64,000 nucleotides of DNA from Enterococcus mundtii. GTDB taxonomy: Bacteria; Bacillota; Bacilli; Lactobacillales; Enterococcaceae. The translations under genes were made by a program, and so were the position numbers. The notes under the pieces were generated by a model. It had not been told where the DNA came from, ran no database searches, and saw only the letters and a list, made by a program, of their open reading frames with translations. Shown in pieces: positions 46,956 to 54,392 of the stretch (position 1 is its first letter; each line of letters starts with the position of its first letter). The DNA lies in assembly GCF_003957375.1 (NCBI RefSeq), contig NZ_CP025473.1, positions 594,001-658,000 of the forward strand, given 5' to 3'.

Positions 46956-46984
46956 TTGCAAATTTAATAATTATTCATTAAACT
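46956..46984 (+). promoter_or_regulatory. oppA: oppA promoter with putative TldR target site
   Basis: TTGCAA (46956-46961), 17 bp, TAAACT (46979-46984). Inside the spacer TTTAA (46963-46967), a TAM motif usual for TnpB relatives, is followed by TAATTAT (46968-46974). The same seven bases begin the putative guide at 54337. A nuclease-dead, RNA-guided protein bound here would cover the -10 and block transcription of oppA. Confidence 0.55.
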
Positions 46985-47007
46985 CATAAACAACTCAGAA
47001 AATACTA

Positions 47008-47022
47008 ATTATTCTGAAAATT
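47008..47022 (+). promoter_or_regulatory. CodY-like box before oppA
   Basis: ATTATTCTGAAAATT matches the CodY consensus AATTTTCWGAAAATT with two differences and lies between promoter and start codon. CodY represses peptide uptake genes in other lactic acid bacteria when branched-chain amino acids and GTP are plentiful, so the site fits the gene. Confidence 0.55.
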
Positions 47023-47042
47023 TCGATAAAGGGGTACGGAAG

Positions 47043-48710
47043 ATGAAAAAGAATTTAACTTTTGGAGTTGTGGCCTTATGTGGGCTTGTGCTTGCTGGTT
47101 GTTATGGTGGCAGCAGCGCAGATACAAGTGGTAGTGGTTCTTCAAGCAGTGGATCAGCAGATGGAGGAGGCGTCTTCAACTTAGTAGTACCTCAAGAAAT
47201 GCCATCAGCCGACTTATCGGTTGCAACAGATACAATCAGTTTTACTGCACTAAATAATGTGTATGAAGGAATCTATCGTTTGGATGAAGATAGTAAACCT
47301 CAACCAGCCGGTGCCAGTGAATTGGCTGAAGTGAGTGAAGATGGATTGACTTATAAAGTCAAATTGCGTGAAGACGCAAAATGGTCAAATGGGGAGCCTG
47401 TCACAGCAGCTGATTATGTATACGGTTGGCAACGTACGGTAGATCCAGCGACGGCATCAGAATATGCGTATCTTTTTGCACCAGTTGAAAATGCTGAAGC
47501 AATCACAGCAGGCGACAAAGACAAATCAGAATTAGGCATCAAAGCAGTTGGTGATTATGAATTGGAAATCAAATTAGCCAAACAAACACCATACTTCCAA
47601 TACTTACTTGCTTTCCCTTCATTCTTCCCACAAAGTCAAGCGGTGGTTGAAGAACATGGAGATGCGTACGCATCATCAAGTGACAACGCAGTATACAACG
47701 GACCATTTACTTTAGCTGATTTTGATGGACCAGGTACTGATACAGAATGGACGTACAAGAAAAACGAAGAGTACTGGGATAAAGATGCAGTTAAATTATC
47801 AGAAATCAAAGTCAGTGTCGTAAAAGAATCTTCTACTGCATTGAATCTGTTCAAAGATGGACAAGCAGATGATGTTATCTTATCAGGTGAGTTAGCACAA
47901 CAAAATGCGAATGATCCAGCTTATACGTCAGTTAAAGAAGCACGTACAAGTTATATCGAGTTCAATCAAAGAGAAGATGATTCACCATTCAAAAATGTGA
48001 ACTTAAGAAAAGCCATTTCTTATTCAATCAACCGTGAAGCATTAGTGAAACAAGTTATGGGTGATGGTTCAGTGGTTTCAACAGGCTTGATTCCTGCAGA
48101 CATGACTAAGAACCCTGAAACAAATGAAGATTTCGCAGCAGAAGCCGGCGAATTAGTATCATATGATCAAGACAAAGCAAAAGAATATTGGGAAAAAGCG
48201 AAGAGTGAATTAGGAATCGACTCATTAGAATTTGAATTGATGGCATCAGATGACGACTCAACGAAAAAAGTGATCGAATATATCCAAAACTCTATCCAAG
48301 AAAACCTTGACGGTGTGAAAGTAAAACCTACACCAGTACCATTCTCTGTTCGTTTGGATCGTTCATCTTCTGGTGATTTTGACACAGTATTAGGTGGCTG
48401 GGGCGCAGACTATGCTGATCCAAGTAGTTTCACTGACTTGTTTGTAACAGGTAACTCTTACAACCGTGGTCAATGGTCAAATGCAGACTATGACAAAGCT
48501 GTTGAAGCATCTGCTTCTAAAGATGCTGGTGACGAACAAGCGCGTTGGGCTGACTTACAAGAAGCGAATAAAATCATCGCTGAAGATATGGGTGTCGCTC
48601 CAATTTACCAAAAAGCTGAAGGTCATTTAGTTAATCCAAAAGTCAAAGGTATCGTTCATCATGCTGCTGGCGCATCATGGGATTACAAATGGACATATAT
48701 TGAAGAATAA
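47043..48710 (+). CDS. oppA: Oligopeptide ABC transporter substrate-binding lipoprotein
   Basis: This 555-residue lipoprotein binds peptides outside the cell. The signal peptide ends in LAGC (Cys 19), followed by a Gly/Ser-rich linker. The family-5 binding fold is shown by NLVVPQEMPSADLSVATD, AKWSNGEPVTAADYVYGWQR and GGWGADYADPSSF. It belongs with oppBCDF, but a convergent-looking small gene (48803-49147, minus strand) and a hairpin after its stop separate it from oppB, so it can be expressed alone in excess, as is usual for binding proteins. Confidence 0.93.
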   Translation: MKKNLTFGVVALCGLVLAGCYGGSSADTSGSGSSSSGSADGGGVFNLVVPQEMPSADLSVATDTISFTALNNVYEGIYRLDEDSKPQPAGASELAEVSEDGLTYKVKLREDAKWSNGEPVTAADYVYGWQRTVDPATASEYAYLFAPVENAEAITAGDKDKSELGIKAVGDYELEIKLAKQTPYFQYLLAFPSFFPQSQAVVEEHGDAYASSSDNAVYNGPFTLADFDGPGTDTEWTYKKNEEYWDKDAVKLSEIKVSVVKESSTALNLFKDGQADDVILSGELAQQNANDPAYTSVKEARTSYIEFNQREDDSPFKNVNLRKAISYSINREALVKQVMGDGSVVSTGLIPADMTKNPETNEDFAAEAGELVSYDQDKAKEYWEKAKSELGIDSLEFELMASDDDSTKKVIEYIQNSIQENLDGVKVKPTPVPFSVRLDRSSSGDFDTVLGGWGADYADPSSFTDLFVTGNSYNRGQWSNADYDKAVEASASKDAGDEQARWADLQEANKIIAEDMGVAPIYQKAEGHLVNPKVKGIVHHAAGASWDYKWTYIEE

Positions 48711-48730
48711 TCTGTCCTAAAAAGAAAAAA

Positions 48731-48770
48731 GAGCGTCTGGGATGTTTAATAAATCCCAGACCTCTCAATT
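48731..48770 (+). terminator. Hairpin after oppA
   Basis: GTCTGGGAT-...-ATCCCAGAC, a perfect 9-bp stem followed by a weak T-tract (CTCTCAATTTT). It is a probable terminator. Confidence 0.65.
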
Positions 48771-48802
48771 TTCTGATCCTAGTTATTCTTTTGGCCGTTC
48801 AT

Positions 48803-49147
48803 TTAGACAAGTGAAATGAGCGCAAAGACAATCGAAAACACAAGCAAAATTCCAGCGATGATCAGCCAAAAGGTATACATACCGTAGCTGACCGAAGATA
48901 GGGAAGTAAATTCTGTTTTTTCCTTCCGGTTTCTCGTTCTTGCTAAGTGAAACGAACGTTGAAAGTGATCAAAGAAACCTGAGGAGAACACCCATAAAAA
49001 TCCGCCGATAATCAAAAACGGCAACGCACATAAAAATAAATCATTGGATAATTGAAGAAGGGTCAACTGATCAGTCAAAGCATTTTTAAGTAACACGAGG
49101 ACGATCACTAAACCGGCAAACAAATAAGGACGATATTTTTTTTTCAT
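48803..49147 (-). CDS. DUF3899-like small membrane protein
   Basis: This 114-residue protein has three hydrophobic segments (about residues 7-22, 36-54 and 91-112) and the central loop SSGFFDHFQRSFHLARTRN, typical of DUF3899. Its function is unknown. It is encoded on the minus strand inside the opp locus, between oppA and oppB, and has GGAGC before the ATG. Transcription towards oppA could interfere with read-through from oppA. Confidence 0.65.
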   Translation of the reverse strand: MKKKYRPYLFAGLVIVLVLLKNALTDQLTLLQLSNDLFLCALPFLIIGGFLWVFSSGFFDHFQRSFHLARTRNRKEKTEFTSLSSVSYGMYTFWLIIAGILLVFSIVFALISLV

Positions 49148-49227
49148 TTTTTTGCTCCTTTATCATTGATTCATTAAATAATGTAGCGAAACATTGATCA
49201 GAAGTCAAAAGCTAGGGGGAAACATTC

Positions 49228-50169
49228 GTGAATAGTTATATAAAATATGTATTAAAACGCGTCTTCTTTATGGTCATCACACTTTGGTTGATTGCAACCA
49301 TCACATTCTTTTTGATGCAATTATTACCTGGTACACCTTACACAAACCAGGAACGTTTAAGTCCTGAAACAATTGAAATGTTGAACAAGCAAGTTGGTTT
49401 GGATAAACCAGTCATCGTTCAATATGGGATCTATCTTTCTAATTTGCTCCAAGGAGATTTTGGTATCTCTTTCCAATTCAAAAACCAACCAGTTGCTAAC
49501 TTATTAGCAGGACGAGTAGGACCTTCATTACAGCTTGGTCTACAAGCAATCATTTTCGGAACTTTCTTTGGAACGATCCTAGGAACAATCTCAGCAATGA
49601 AACAAAATACATGGGTCGATACGTCTTCTACATTAGTCGCGATCTTAGGCCGTTCTATCCCTAACTTTGTTTTTGCTGTATTGTTACAATACATTTTTGC
49701 CATCCAATTTCGTGTATTGCCGATCGCAAAATGGGATGGGTTCATGTATACGATTTTACCAACGATTGCACTAGCCATGTCGCCATTAGCAGACTCTGCT
49801 AGATTCATACGAACAGAAATGGTCGAAGTCTTGCATAGTGATTATGTCGAATTGGCTCGAGCAAAAGGCTTGAGTCGTTGGGAAATTGCATTCAAACATG
49901 GTCTACGTAATAGTTTGATCCCGTTGATGACCTTATTAGGCCCATTAGCAGTCGCGTTGATGACTGGTTCATTAGTTGTCGAAAATATCTTTGCTATTCC
50001 GGGTATCGGTGAGCAATTCGTTAAGTCGATCACAACAAATGACTATCCAACGATCATGGCTGTCACGATCTTGTATTCATTTATGTTGATCTTAGTTATT
50101 TTAGTCGTGGATCTATTGTACGGACTAGTTGATCCGAGAATCCGAGTTTCTGAAGGGAGTCGAAGCTAG
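49228..50169 (+). CDS. oppB: Oligopeptide ABC transporter permease OppB
   Basis: This 313-residue permease has six helices. Its start (YIKYVLKRVFFMVITLWLIA) and the large first extracellular region with LSPETIEMLNKQVGLDKP are typical of OppB/DppB. The EAA loop is YVELARAKGLSRWEIAFKHG. GTG start after AGGGGGAAA. It directly abuts oppC. The 80 bases upstream should hold its own promoter, because the neighbour is on the other strand. Confidence 0.93.
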   Translation: MNSYIKYVLKRVFFMVITLWLIATITFFLMQLLPGTPYTNQERLSPETIEMLNKQVGLDKPVIVQYGIYLSNLLQGDFGISFQFKNQPVANLLAGRVGPSLQLGLQAIIFGTFFGTILGTISAMKQNTWVDTSSTLVAILGRSIPNFVFAVLLQYIFAIQFRVLPIAKWDGFMYTILPTIALAMSPLADSARFIRTEMVEVLHSDYVELARAKGLSRWEIAFKHGLRNSLIPLMTLLGPLAVALMTGSLVVENIFAIPGIGEQFVKSITTNDYPTIMAVTILYSFMLILVILVVDLLYGLVDPRIRVSEGSRS

Positions 50170-51213
50170 ATGGAACTGATACCTAAACGCTACGAAACAA
50201 TTGCAGAAATTCCTGCAGATGAATTTTTACCGTTACAAAAAAATACAGAAGAAGAACGTGAAAAAATCGAAGCTCCTTCACTGAATTTTATTCAGGATTC
50301 TTGGCGTCGATTGAAGAAAAACAAAGCGGCTGTTATTTCCATGGGACTACTGATCGTGATCATCTTTATCTCGATCATCACGATTTTCGTTTCACCCCAT
50401 GATCCAACCGCTCAAAATGTCGATTACATCAACTTACCACCACGTATTCCTGGTATCAATATCGACGGACTAAACGGAAAAGCAATGGTTGCGGGTGAGT
50501 TAGTCGATAAATATGCGCAAGCCAATGTTCCCGCAGATGTGAACTACTTTTTAGGAACAGATGGTCTAGGTCGTGATGTGTTAAGCCGTTTGTTCATGGG
50601 AACGCGAATCTCTCTATTGATTGCCTTCATCGCTGCATTACTAGATGTAACGATCGGTGTTGCCTATGGTTTGATCTCTGGTTTGTTAGGTGGTCGTGTG
50701 GATAATGCAATGCAACGTTTCTTAGAGGTCTTATCTGGAATTCCTAACTTAGTCGTAATGATCTTGATGTTAGTCGTTTTTGAACCAGGGATCTTCTCGA
50801 TCGTGGCAGCGATGGCGATCACGAACTGGATTCCGATGGCTCGGATCGTTAGGGCACAAACATTGAAATTAAAAGACCAAGAGTACGTGTTAGCAGGAAT
50901 GACATTAGGTGAATCCAAATGGAAAATCGCCTTCAAGCATATCTTGCCAAACATTTCGAGTGTGATCATCATCCAAATGATGTTCAGTATCCCATCAGCG
51001 ATTTTCTTCGAAGCTTTCTTAAGTTTCATCGGCCTAGGCTTGACACCACCTTCTGCTTCATTGGGAACGATGTTGAGTGATGGCTACAAAACATTCTTAT
51101 ACTTGCCGTACCTATTATGGATACCGGCAGCAACTTTATCGGTGATCATGATTGGTTTCAACTTATTAGCAGATGGCTTACGTGATGCCTTTGACCCTAA
51201 AATGAAAGAGTGA
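50170..51213 (+). CDS. oppC: Oligopeptide ABC transporter permease OppC
   Basis: This 347-residue permease has an extended cytoplasmic N-terminus of about 55 residues, then six helices. LGTDGLGRDVLSRLFMGTRISL is the typical OppC/DppC region, and YVLAGMTLGESKWKIAFKHILPN is the EAA loop. It starts with no spacing after the oppB stop, which suggests translational coupling. Confidence 0.94.
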   Translation: MELIPKRYETIAEIPADEFLPLQKNTEEEREKIEAPSLNFIQDSWRRLKKNKAAVISMGLLIVIIFISIITIFVSPHDPTAQNVDYINLPPRIPGINIDGLNGKAMVAGELVDKYAQANVPADVNYFLGTDGLGRDVLSRLFMGTRISLLIAFIAALLDVTIGVAYGLISGLLGGRVDNAMQRFLEVLSGIPNLVVMILMLVVFEPGIFSIVAAMAITNWIPMARIVRAQTLKLKDQEYVLAGMTLGESKWKIAFKHILPNISSVIIIQMMFSIPSAIFFEAFLSFIGLGLTPPSASLGTMLSDGYKTFLYLPYLLWIPAATLSVIMIGFNLLADGLRDAFDPKMKE

Positions 51214-51218
51214 GTACG

Positions 51219-52301
51219 ATGACGAAAATTCTTGAAGTAAAGAACTTACAAATCTCCTTTGATACCTATGCTGGAAAAGTCCAAGCAATTCGAGGCGTCG
51301 ATTTTCATTTGAACAAAGGTGAAACATTGGCCATCGTTGGCGAATCCGGTAGTGGGAAATCCGTAACGACTAGAAGTATCATGCGATTATTATCAAGTAA
51401 CGCATCAATCGATTCTGGTGAGATTTTATTCAAAGGACAAAACCTTGTTGGTAAAACAGAAAAAGAAATGCAAAAGATTCGTGGGAAAGAAATTGCGATG
51501 ATCTTCCAAGATCCGATGACTTCATTAGATCCAACGATGACGATTGGTAAACAAGTAGCAGAATCTTTACGTAAGCATAATAAAGTATCGAAAAAAGAGG
51601 GGCAAAAAGCCGCTTTAGAATTATTGAATCTTGTAGGGATCCCGGAGGCTGAGAAACGCATCCATAGTTATCCTCATCAATTTTCAGGGGGACAACGGCA
51701 ACGGATCGTGATCGCGATCGCGTTGATATGTTACCCAGAAATCTTGATTGCAGATGAACCAACGACAGCCTTAGATGTGACGATCCAAGCACAGATTTTA
51801 GAGTTGTTGAAAAAAATCCAATCAAAAATTGACACGTCGATCATTTTTATCACCCATGATCTTGGTGTCGTAGCGAATGTCGCTGATCGAGTAGCAGTGA
51901 TGTACGGTGGGAAAATCATTGAAGTGGGTACATCTGAAGAGATTTTTTACAATCCACAGCATCCGTATACATGGGGCTTACTTGGCTCGATGCCTACATT
52001 GGAAAGTGGCAATGAACGCTTATATGCAATTCCAGGTTCTCCACCAGATTTATTGAATCCGCCAAAAGGAGATGCCTTCTATCCACGAAATGAATTTGCA
52101 TTGAAAATCGATGCGGAACAAGCACCACCGTTTTTCGAACTATCACCAACACACCAAGCAGCTACTTGGCTATTAGCCCCACAAGCTCCAAAAGTGACAC
52201 CGCCAGAAGAGATTCAACGGCGCTGGGCGATTTTTCAAGAAAAACAAAAAGCACATGGCCAAGGGGGATTGAACAATGAACAAAAAACTGCTCGAGGTTA
52301 A
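51219..52301 (+). CDS. oppD: Oligopeptide ABC transporter ATPase OppD
   Basis: This 360-residue ATPase has Walker [12 protein letters not shown], signature [15 protein letters not shown], Walker [13 protein letters not shown] and the H-loop THD, followed by the oligopeptide-type C-terminus ([11 protein letters not shown]-like [13 protein letters not shown]). In this family that C-terminus can hold a [4Fe-4S] cluster when several cysteines are present; none are seen here. The ATG at 51219 is chosen over the GTG at 51210, which overlaps the oppC stop. It overlaps oppF by 26 bases. Confidence 0.93.
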
Positions 52302-53229
52302 AGGCTTAAAACAGTATTTTAATGTAGGAAAGAAAAATGAAGTCCATGCGGTGAATGATATCAGTTTTCACATCTATGAAGGGGAAACATTCGGCTTAGT
52401 TGGCGAATCTGGTAGTGGAAAGTCAACCACAGGTCGAACGATCATCCGTTTGAATGAACCAACGGGTGGCGAGATTTTATTTGATGGGCAAGATGTGACG
52501 AAATTAAAAGGCAAACAAGCCATGACAAAGTTTCGTCATGAAGTCCAAATGATTTTCCAAGATCCATATGCTTCATTAAATCCAAGAATGAAAGTACGAG
52601 ATATCATTGCAGAAGGAATCGATGTCAATGGCCTAGCTAAATCACCCGAAGAGCGTGCAGAAAAAGTCAACGAGTTACTAAAAACAGTTGGCTTAAATCC
52701 TAGCCATGGCACACGCTATCCTCATGAATTTTCAGGGGGACAACGCCAACGGATCGGGATTGCACGAGCATTAGCAGTCAATCCGAAGTTTATCATTTGT
52801 GATGAACCAATCTCTGCTTTAGACGTATCGATCCAAGCCCAAGTGGTCAATCTTTTACAAGATTTACAAAAAGAGCAAGGATTGACTTACTTGTTTATCG
52901 CGCACGATTTATCCATGGTAAAACATATCAGTGACCGTATTGGTGTGATGCACAATGGCTTGTTGCTTGAGATGGGAACCAGTGAAGAAATCTATAATCA
53001 TGGAGTGCATCCATATACGGAAAGCTTACTATCAGCGATTCCATTGCCTGACCCTGATCATGAACGTCAACGTCGCCGGATCAAGTATCAACCTGAACCA
53101 GACGATGGACAAATCCGCACGTTACGCGAAATTGCTCCTGAACATTTTGTATACGCAACAGAACAAGAAGTTGCTTATTATGCGAAAAAATTAAAACGGC
53201 AGAAAGAAGCCTTGCTAGTCGCAAACTAG
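52276..53229 (+). CDS. oppF: Oligopeptide ABC transporter ATPase OppF
   Basis: This 317-residue second ATPase of the importer has Walker [14 protein letters not shown], the Q-loop with [12 protein letters not shown], signature [16 protein letters not shown] and Walker [12 protein letters not shown]. The ATG at 52276, after AAGGGGGA, lies inside the oppD end. Only 12 bases separate its stop from the tldR start, so tldR is part of the opp transcript. Confidence 0.94.
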
Positions 53230-53241
53230 GGGGAGAAGCCG

Positions 53242-54249
53242 ATGCTAAAAGCCTTTAAATTTCGAATCTATCCCACTGATTCACAAAAACAGTGGTTGAT
53301 CCAAACATTTGGTTGTGTGCGTTTCACTTACAATCATTTATTAAAAGCCAGACAGGCGTATTATTTAGAAACACAAGAGATCGATTATACGCTGACACCA
53401 GCTTCTTTAAAAAAGCAATATCCGTTTTTAAAGGAAGTCGATAGTTTAGCCTTAGCGAATGCCCAATTAAACTTGGATCGTGCATTTCGTAATTATTTTA
53501 AAGGACGCGCAAGCTTTCCCAAACTAAAAAATAAAAAAAGTATTTGGCAGTCGTATACGACGAATAATCAAAAAGGAACAATCTATTTAGAAGAAACATA
53601 CCTTAAATTGCCAAAGCTAAAAGAGAAAATTCGCATCCATGCCCATCGTCCGATTGAAGGAACGATTCGTTCAGCAACGATCTCATCTCGATACAACGAG
53701 ATCTTTTATGTCTCCTTGCTCTGTGAAGTTCCCCCAAAGACGATGAAAGCGTCAAATAAATGGATCGGGATAGCCTATGATCCAGATCGTCTAGTGGAGA
53801 TGTCCACACCACTTGACATCACGATTCCAAAATTCAAACAAGTTGATCAACAACTCCTGCGGGCAAAGAGAAAGCTTGTGATCAAAGGACGATCAGCACA
53901 GCATCGACGCACACACGTTGAAAGAGTAAAAAATTATCAAAAGCAAAAAAGGAAAATCAAAGACCTTTATTTAAAACAAAAATTTCAACGAGAAGACTAT
54001 TTAGAACAAATTTCAGGAACAGTGATTCGTCATTATGATTATTTGTTTGTCGAATCGATTTCAGCAGATTGTCCGGAAGGCGATTTTTCTATCCAAGACT
54101 GGCATAAGCTATTAGCAAAGCTCCAATATAAATCGCAATGGTATAGCAAAAAGTTAGTATTGATCGATATGAAAGAACAAACAAATCCTTCCACAAATAA
54201 AAAGAGTCTGGAATTAATTGAAATCGGGAAGCAAGTCCTGTTTGAATAA
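53242..54249 (+). CDS. tldR: TldR: nuclease-dead TnpB homologue (RNA-guided regulator)
   Basis: This 335-residue protein has the TnpB/OrfB N-terminus (LKAFKFRIYPTDSQKQWLIQ, FGCVRFTYNHLLKAR) with its RNA- and DNA-binding part, and a degraded RuvC domain. RuvC-I, normally GID, reads WIGIAYDPD (Ala at 178); the RuvC-II Glu is kept (FVESIS, E271), but the following Asp is Ser. The four-cysteine zinc finger and final DRD motif are gone, replaced by a short tail (EQTNPSTNKKS...). No cleavage can be expected. No transposon ends or TnpA are present, and GGGGGAG couples it to oppF. Oligopeptide-operon TldRs of enterococci were described in 2024 as RNA-guided repressors; this fits that group. Confidence 0.88.
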   Translation: MLKAFKFRIYPTDSQKQWLIQTFGCVRFTYNHLLKARQAYYLETQEIDYTLTPASLKKQYPFLKEVDSLALANAQLNLDRAFRNYFKGRASFPKLKNKKSIWQSYTTNNQKGTIYLEETYLKLPKLKEKIRIHAHRPIEGTIRSATISSRYNEIFYVSLLCEVPPKTMKASNKWIGIAYDPDRLVEMSTPLDITIPKFKQVDQQLLRAKRKLVIKGRSAQHRRTHVERVKNYQKQKRKIKDLYLKQKFQREDYLEQISGTVIRHYDYLFVESISADCPEGDFSIQDWHKLLAKLQYKSQWYSKKLVLIDMKEQTNPSTNKKSLELIEIGKQVLFE

Positions 54250-54352
54250 AAAACTGGTAGGGGCGCCAGGGTTCGCCTTGCTAATAAAAAACATCTATTG
54301 TTTTTGTTTCTAGGAATTTCTTTCAGAGAAGCTCACTAATTATGACAAACCA
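54180..54352 (+). ncRNA. Putative TldR guide RNA (omega-RNA-like) with 3' guide
   Basis: By analogy with TnpB, the guide RNA should overlap the 3' end of tldR and end in the guide. Downstream of the stop are hairpin-forming segments: GGCG-...-CGCC in GGGGCGCCAGGGTTCGCC (54260-54277) and TTCT-TTCAG-AGAA (about 54319-54331), ending GCTCAC at 54336. The guide would start at 54337 (TAATTATGAC...). Its first seven bases equal the site beside TTTAA in the oppA promoter. The 5' boundary is a guess, and the boundary between scaffold and guide is inferred. Confidence 0.55.
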
Positions 54353-54392
54353 AAAAAGAGGAGAAGAGCATTCATGCCCTTCTCCTCTTTTT
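54353..54392. terminator. Bidirectional terminator after tldR/gRNA
   Basis: AAAAGAGGAGAAG-...-CTTCTCCTCTTTTT, perfect 11-bp stem with a GC-closed loop. It ends both the tldR transcript and the convergent NUDIX gene. Confidence 0.9.

Follow-up and report, generated by a model that had tools for sequence, protein, structure and literature searches.

Within a 64,000-nucleotide (nt) stretch of Enterococcus mundtii DNA (positions 594,001 to 658,000 of contig NZ_CP025473.1, assembly GCF_003957375.1; hereafter the window, its genome of 2.83 Mb being G000), the peptide-transport genes oppA-oppB-oppC-oppD-oppF are followed by tldR, which encodes a nuclease-dead homologue of TnpB, then by a guide-RNA scaffold and then by a terminator-like hairpin (Table 1). 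TldR, together with a guide of only 6–7 nt, very probably blocks the core promoter of oppA and thereby damps its own operon by negative feedback. As deduced from the sequence, tldR would close the opp operon and be co-transcribed with it; the 3′ end of the gene would continue into the guide RNA, which would be released by processing. The TldR-RNA complex would recognize TTTAA and the adjoining TAATTA(T) in the spacer that separates the −35 and −10 hexamers of the oppA promoter, open a very short R-loop there and exclude RNA polymerase. Because repressor and guide would come from the very operon that is repressed, peptide uptake would be restrained by negative feedback.

The start of the guide and its transposon-adjacent motif (TAM) were derived from related intact TnpB elements (∼42–44% identical to TldR; multicopy in G054, G052 and other genomes), of which 20 copies were fetched. 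Their right end read TTCAC in all 20, with varying bases beyond, and TTTAA formed the left end in 13 of the 13 copies for which the left end was shown. The TldR scaffold terminates in CAC, as the transposon right ends do. Because the ends of the intact transposons fix TTCAC and TTTAA, the guide is placed at 54337 (TAATTAT; from there it reads TAATTATGACAAACC) and the TAM is TTTAA. The spacer between the −35 and −10 hexamers of oppA, 17 nt long by sequence reading, holds exactly the predicted TTTAA plus TAATTAT. The first-pass annotation of the window had arrived at the same guide start behind the scaffold and at the same site in the 17-nt spacer, with coordinates that proved correct; its statement that no other guide-start copy flanked by TTTAA or TTTAT exists in the window was borne out by a search of the window. 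The −35 hexamer is absent from the consensus promoter-scan matches, as it falls below the cut-offs of the scan.

Window-like TldRs were encoded at 57 loci in 105 genomes of the family, which together with the window gave 58 window-type loci. The scaffold core TTTCTAGGAA was present in 55 of these, and guide nt 1–7 read TAATTAT in all 55 (guide-start pattern used: CACTAATTA). The three loci failing this pattern, in which the scaffold was not recognized, also lacked the core (L075, L090 and L095). The tldR of L075 carries stops, and in the genomes of L075 and L095 (G063 and G064), where another tldR copy follows a second opp operon, the old copy looks as though it were in decay. The scaffold model, applied with strict filters that may miss weak copies, produced 78 matches in 73 of the 105 genomes, all of them TldR-bearing, which fits one match for each tldR with a scaffold and an additional one on a contig fragment in G104. 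Stem 1 of the scaffold has two base pairs in which both sides change; one of these pairs is broken in 10 of 41 sequences. The window copy, folded by itself, was unremarkable (z −1.34). The AACC at guide nt 12–15 (54348–54351) is conserved in nearly all of the 55 loci despite its mismatch to the target.

In a single genome, the match between guide and target is weak and, judged by sequence counts, not convincing on its own. In the window, TAATTAT occurs at chance level (17 observed, 18.6 expected), and the 11-bp word TTTAATAATTA, which begins with the TAM, is present once where 0.17 copies are expected; 16 of 100 shuffled windows contained at least one. It is the conservation across species that raises the match above chance. 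The gene order opp-tldR was found in 45 of the 58 window-type loci (the other 13, not linked to the window's type of opp operon, are outside the following counts), and TTTAATAATTA lay no more than 200 nt upstream of oppA in all 45. Of the 51 oppA copies in these loci, 48 have a top-strand word, and three, all downstream second copies, lack it. Exactly one nt separates TTTAA from the −35 hexamer in 47 of these 48 promoters; the remaining promoter is truncated at a contig end. When 462 AT words of equal composition were compared, TTTAATAATTA alone was present in all 45 promoters, the next one reaching 33. The guide/target match extends over 7 nt in 33 loci and over 6 nt in 12; the 7-nt match described in the first pass thus stands for the window and the former loci, and is one nt too long for the latter.

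A diverged group of oppF-linked TldRs (37–41% identical; 22 genomes, 20 loci fetched) shares the kind of scaffold and the guide start with the window type. There, the word is missing from the oppA spacer; a bottom-strand copy is located in the leader, shortly downstream of the −10 hexamer, within 200 nt of oppA in 20/20 loci and within 260 nt in the two remaining genomes. The match was 8 nt long in 18 of the 20 loci, 9 nt in one and 7 nt in one. TTTAA plus TAATTA therefore occurs near the oppA start in 67/67 tldR-linked loci (45 top-strand words in the −35/−10 spacer and 22 bottom-strand words in the leader), versus 0/16 complete opp operons without tldR (G024, 13 genomes of genus g3, the second operon of G007, and G093). 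The dead TnpB homologue, the adjacent conserved guide RNA, the guide start, the TAM and this target distribution are the steps of the proposed self-encoded, RNA-guided repressor that are accessible to sequence analysis, and all of them hold. The word was also absent from 16 of 16 further oppA genes not linked to tldR, 12 of them in G057, G072, G092 and G095 and four being paralogues in G085 and G086; in the latter two genomes, only the tldR-linked oppA copy carries it. Nor was it found at three lone oppA genes of TldR-bearing genomes (L171–L173). L174 and L441 are one and the same gene. In G024, a tldR-less member of the window's genus, −35, −10 and leader are recognizable and the spacer differs.

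Could TTTAATAATTA be a promoter element or be bound by a protein regulator, and agree with the guide by coincidence? The word is AT-rich and situated in a core promoter, and a CodY-box-like palindrome, with two mismatches to what we take to be the CodY consensus, is nearby. This explanation is nevertheless unlikely: operons without tldR lack the word though 13 of 15 retain the CodY-like box and several retain −35 and −10; the word shifts strand and position between clades and occurs at a different operon where tldR adjoins that one; and its first five bases are the TAM found independently in transposons. CodY-box matches with up to three mismatches occur at chance level in the window. The palindrome adjoins the TldR target, and opp may be doubly controlled.

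Wiegand and colleagues reportedly described, in Nature in 2024, oppF-associated TldRs of Enterococcus with the same neighborhood, a dead TnpB, an adjacent guide RNA and a short guide, and the TldR of the window most likely belongs to this same family. It is 96% identical to the TldR of an Enterococcus mundtii strain. By sequence it matches TnpB structures of the Protein Data Bank (6.6e-27), and its predicted model (predicted local distance difference test 90.7, predicted template-modeling score 0.65) gave 8h1j as the top Foldseek match (E 1.9e-23, TM-score 0.51); a TM-score of ∼0.5 may reflect the orientation of the domains in the model. TldR is thus homologous by sequence and predicted fold to ISDra2 TnpB (8h1j, 8exa and 8bf8), which is an active RuvC nuclease with a zinc finger. 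Unlike ISDra2 TnpB, it has lost the RuvC-I Asp, the zinc finger and the last Asp: alignment placed A178 at the position of the RuvC-I Asp and showed zinc finger and DRD to be gone, as the first-pass annotation had read for the gene behind oppF. An active IS200/IS605 TnpB was therefore ruled out, an intact RuvC D-E-D and zinc finger not being present. The RuvC-I Asp is replaced in 76/76 TldRs (56/56 window-type proteins, counted after leaving out two shorter than 250 aa, and 20/20 diverged ones) and retained in 20/20 TnpBs. Window-type TldRs also lack the DRD and the zinc-finger cysteines, except for one Cys-aligned residue in one protein, and the RuvC-II Glu is retained in the window TldR and in 35 of the 56 window-type proteins. 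In a phylogenetic tree, in which seven rows labeled TnpB are actually TldRs, both TldR groups were supported and a single origin weakly so (81/61).

A functional precedent is the flagellin-associated TldR of Enterobacter prophages, for which guides of 6 nt suffice, the seed being 6 nt, and which represses its target promoter (PMC13418256). The two systems would share a dead TnpB that represses a promoter under guidance by an RNA with so short a seed. They differ in that the flagellin TldR is phage-borne and accompanied by a replacement flagellin, and tldR of the window is the last gene of the operon that it is proposed to repress. Conceivably, TldR binds at oppA without mainly repressing it, and may activate or act only together with another regulator. 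The evidence for the direction of control is the position of the site, and in the diverged clade this site is downstream of −10 and on the opposite strand. We nonetheless hold such a role to be quite improbable, as occupancy of the −35/−10 spacer should block the polymerase and the flagellin TldR acts as a repressor (PMC13418256).

Several observations weigh against repression of oppA by TldR and its short guide. The genome of the window contains six copies of TTTAATAATTA, the same number as of the reversed control word, and thus sites of equal quality elsewhere. The match between window-type guide and target ends no later than nt 7, and in 12 of the 45 loci nt 7 is itself unmatched. Since the guide start is invariant, no compensatory change between guide and target can be shown. 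The Fisher value for the target with versus without tldR (3e-17) ignores kinship among the species; a single genus contributed 13 of the 16 tldR-less operons, and few contrasts are available within genera (G024; G007 versus the rest of g3; G072; G057 versus G056). Finally, tldR is interrupted in E. innesii (L096, G048), yet scaffold, guide and oppA target persist and look intact, which would correspond to a recent loss or a sequencing error.

Beyond oppA, one of the six words in the genome of the window is upstream of a gene for a di/tripeptide transporter of the POT family, which we take to be dtpT. In the window's genus, this word is on the bottom strand and overlaps a TATAAT in 12 of 13 TldR-bearing species (not in G035), and in neither of two species without TldR. 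In other genera, it was present with a different position or strand (4/5 in g5, 4/4 in g6 and 2/9 in g4). It was absent from dtpT in all eight TldR-less genomes (the two of the window's genus included), in 18 of 18 genomes of the diverged group's genera, and in nine of nine of g9, g10 and g17. This tally covers those genomes, 66 of the 105, in which dtpT was matched at 1e-150, minus G050 (contig end), and the 18 include G072, which is TldR-less and also counted among the eight. In 31 dtpT regions of g1, g4, g5 and g6, the word ranked first of the 462 (22/31; the next, an overlapping word, 20), and fourth in g4 alone. That the −10-like TATAAT forms part of the word weakens the case for dtpT and does not remove it. 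When all words in the TldR-bearing species of the window's genus were inspected, only the oppA and dtpT sites recurred in more than four species.

Ten guide-bearing window-type tldRs are not linked to the window's type of opp operon, and seven of them go along with a word upstream of a second oppA. The other three (L067, L077 and L078, in G039, G042 and G043) are outside this tally; their genomes have a second tldR, which is opp-linked. In G036, G038 and G040, no OppA match was obtained at 1e-150, and tldR and guide remain beside genes that we take to be GNAT- and NUDIX-like and that also flank the window's operon; one of the five to six words of each genome is located 181–216 nt upstream of an oppA of the second type. 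In G062, G063, G064 and G056, tldR is behind the second-type opp operon, and a bottom-strand word is found upstream of its oppA (4/4), near a −35-like TTGACG. Six second-type OppAs are 64–85% identical to each other.

These sites suggest, with somewhat better than even confidence, that one unvarying 6–7-nt guide runs a peptide-uptake regulon consisting of opp in cis, of dtpT in trans (in several genera) and, if tldR is orphaned or situated behind it, of a second opp operon; judging from the sites, a second peptide transporter is perhaps also switched down in some species. The main targets might even be dtpT and the second oppA, with the oppA site being minor, as guide-bearing tldRs persist without the opp operon in G036, G038 and G040 and the word accompanies dtpT in four genera. 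Such a ranking is highly improbable, considering that every tldR-linked locus examined has the oppA word and that dtpT lacks it in seven of nine g4 species, in the diverged group, and in those genomes of g9, g10 and g17 in which dtpT was matched. If dtpT holds, the regulon would be built on a guide of 6–7 nt, and a domesticated TnpB would have become a nutrient regulator on the chromosome; its targets would evolve through the gain of an 11-bp word.

The longer target TTTANTAATTATNANAAA had matches in 14 of the 105 genomes, none of them the oppA spacer site; they include the dtpT site of G054 and one site common to G000, G028 and G029. Three further candidate regulon members, named by our own reading of the sequences, were dropped because of their narrow distribution: a rhodanese/TetR site (L197, L325 and L326) and an amino-acid-permease site (L195, L305 and L306), each confined to G000, G028 and G029, and a site near rpsG (L268, L270, L283 and L296), found in four species only. 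At the first of these, between TetR-like and rhodanese-like genes, TTTAATAATTATGAAAAA (G000:C1:2289631-2289641, L197; also in G028 and G029) matches 9 nt of the guide, and the match resumes after one mismatch.

The guide RNA of the diverged group matches an entry that Rfam lists merely as an Enterococcus small RNA (sRNA), Ref70 (Enterococcus sRNA 70, RF02841). Ref70 was above cut-off behind tldR in three of four diverged-type loci (L136, L144 and L150, not L155) and in none of six window-type loci searched; the match in the window (54248–54348) is weak, 32.6 bits compared with a gathering cut-off of 115. From these matches, we read Ref70 as a TldR guide RNA. Literature searches, which do not prove absence from print, retrieved no paper equating the two (a word search of PMC3166299 included), none on Ref70 as an Enterococcus sRNA, none joining TldR, TnpB and oppF, none on an E. 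faecalis CodY box and oligopeptides and, by title, none joining dtpT, oppA and TnpB in Enterococcus. The family-wide test of the target, the dtpT sites, the second-oppA sites and the link to Ref70 may thus be new. If correct, TldR would be a chromosomal RNA-guided transcription factor controlling its own operon, and would illustrate how small a complementarity suffices for such a regulator and how its targets are gained and lost in evolution; a catalogued sRNA would gain a function, and enterococcal peptide import a new, testable control.

Table 1. Features of the opp-tldR locus, in coordinates of the window.
Feature	Position	Strand	Basis or remark
−35 hexamer TTGCAA of oppA promoter	46956..46961	+	read from sequence
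TAM TTTAA of candidate TldR target	46963..46967	+	TTTAA is the left end of related TnpB element copies
Guide-matching target TAATTAT	46968..46974	+	TAATTA conserved; nt 7 is T in the window
−10 hexamer TAAACT of oppA promoter	46979..46984	+	read from sequence
CodY-box-like palindrome in oppA leader	47008..47022	+	two mismatches
oppA, peptide-binding lipoprotein	47043..48710	+	Pfam SBP_bac_5
oppB (presumed name), permease	49228..50169	+	open reading frame, synteny
oppC (presumed name), permease	50170..51213	+	open reading frame, synteny
oppD (presumed name), ATPase	51219..52301	+	open reading frame, synteny
oppF, ATPase	52276..53229	+	Pfam ABC_tran, oligo_HPY
tldR, nuclease-dead TnpB homologue, 335 aa	53242..54249	+	Pfam HTH_OrfB_IS605; TnpB structures by sequence and fold
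Guide-RNA scaffold, ends CTCAC at 54336	54252..54336	+	conserved alignment; match to scaffold model R1; weak Rfam Ref70
Guide nt 1–7 TAATTAT	54337..54343	+	55/55 scaffold-core loci; boundary from transposon right ends
Guide-proximal tail GACAAACC	54344..54351	+	last bases conserved
Terminator-like hairpin, may end the operon transcript	54353..54392	+ (− in scan)	T run inside stem on + strand; use on + strand presumed

The start of tldR is separated from the stop of oppF by a 12-nt gap. A small gene with a match to DUF3899 is located between oppA and oppB on the minus strand (48803–49147). Genes for TldR-like proteins 64–68% identical to that of the window were also found in two unannotated records of 4–4.6 kb labeled "Listeria phage" (OR848705.1 and OR847207.1), which are perhaps enterococcal chromosomal DNA.

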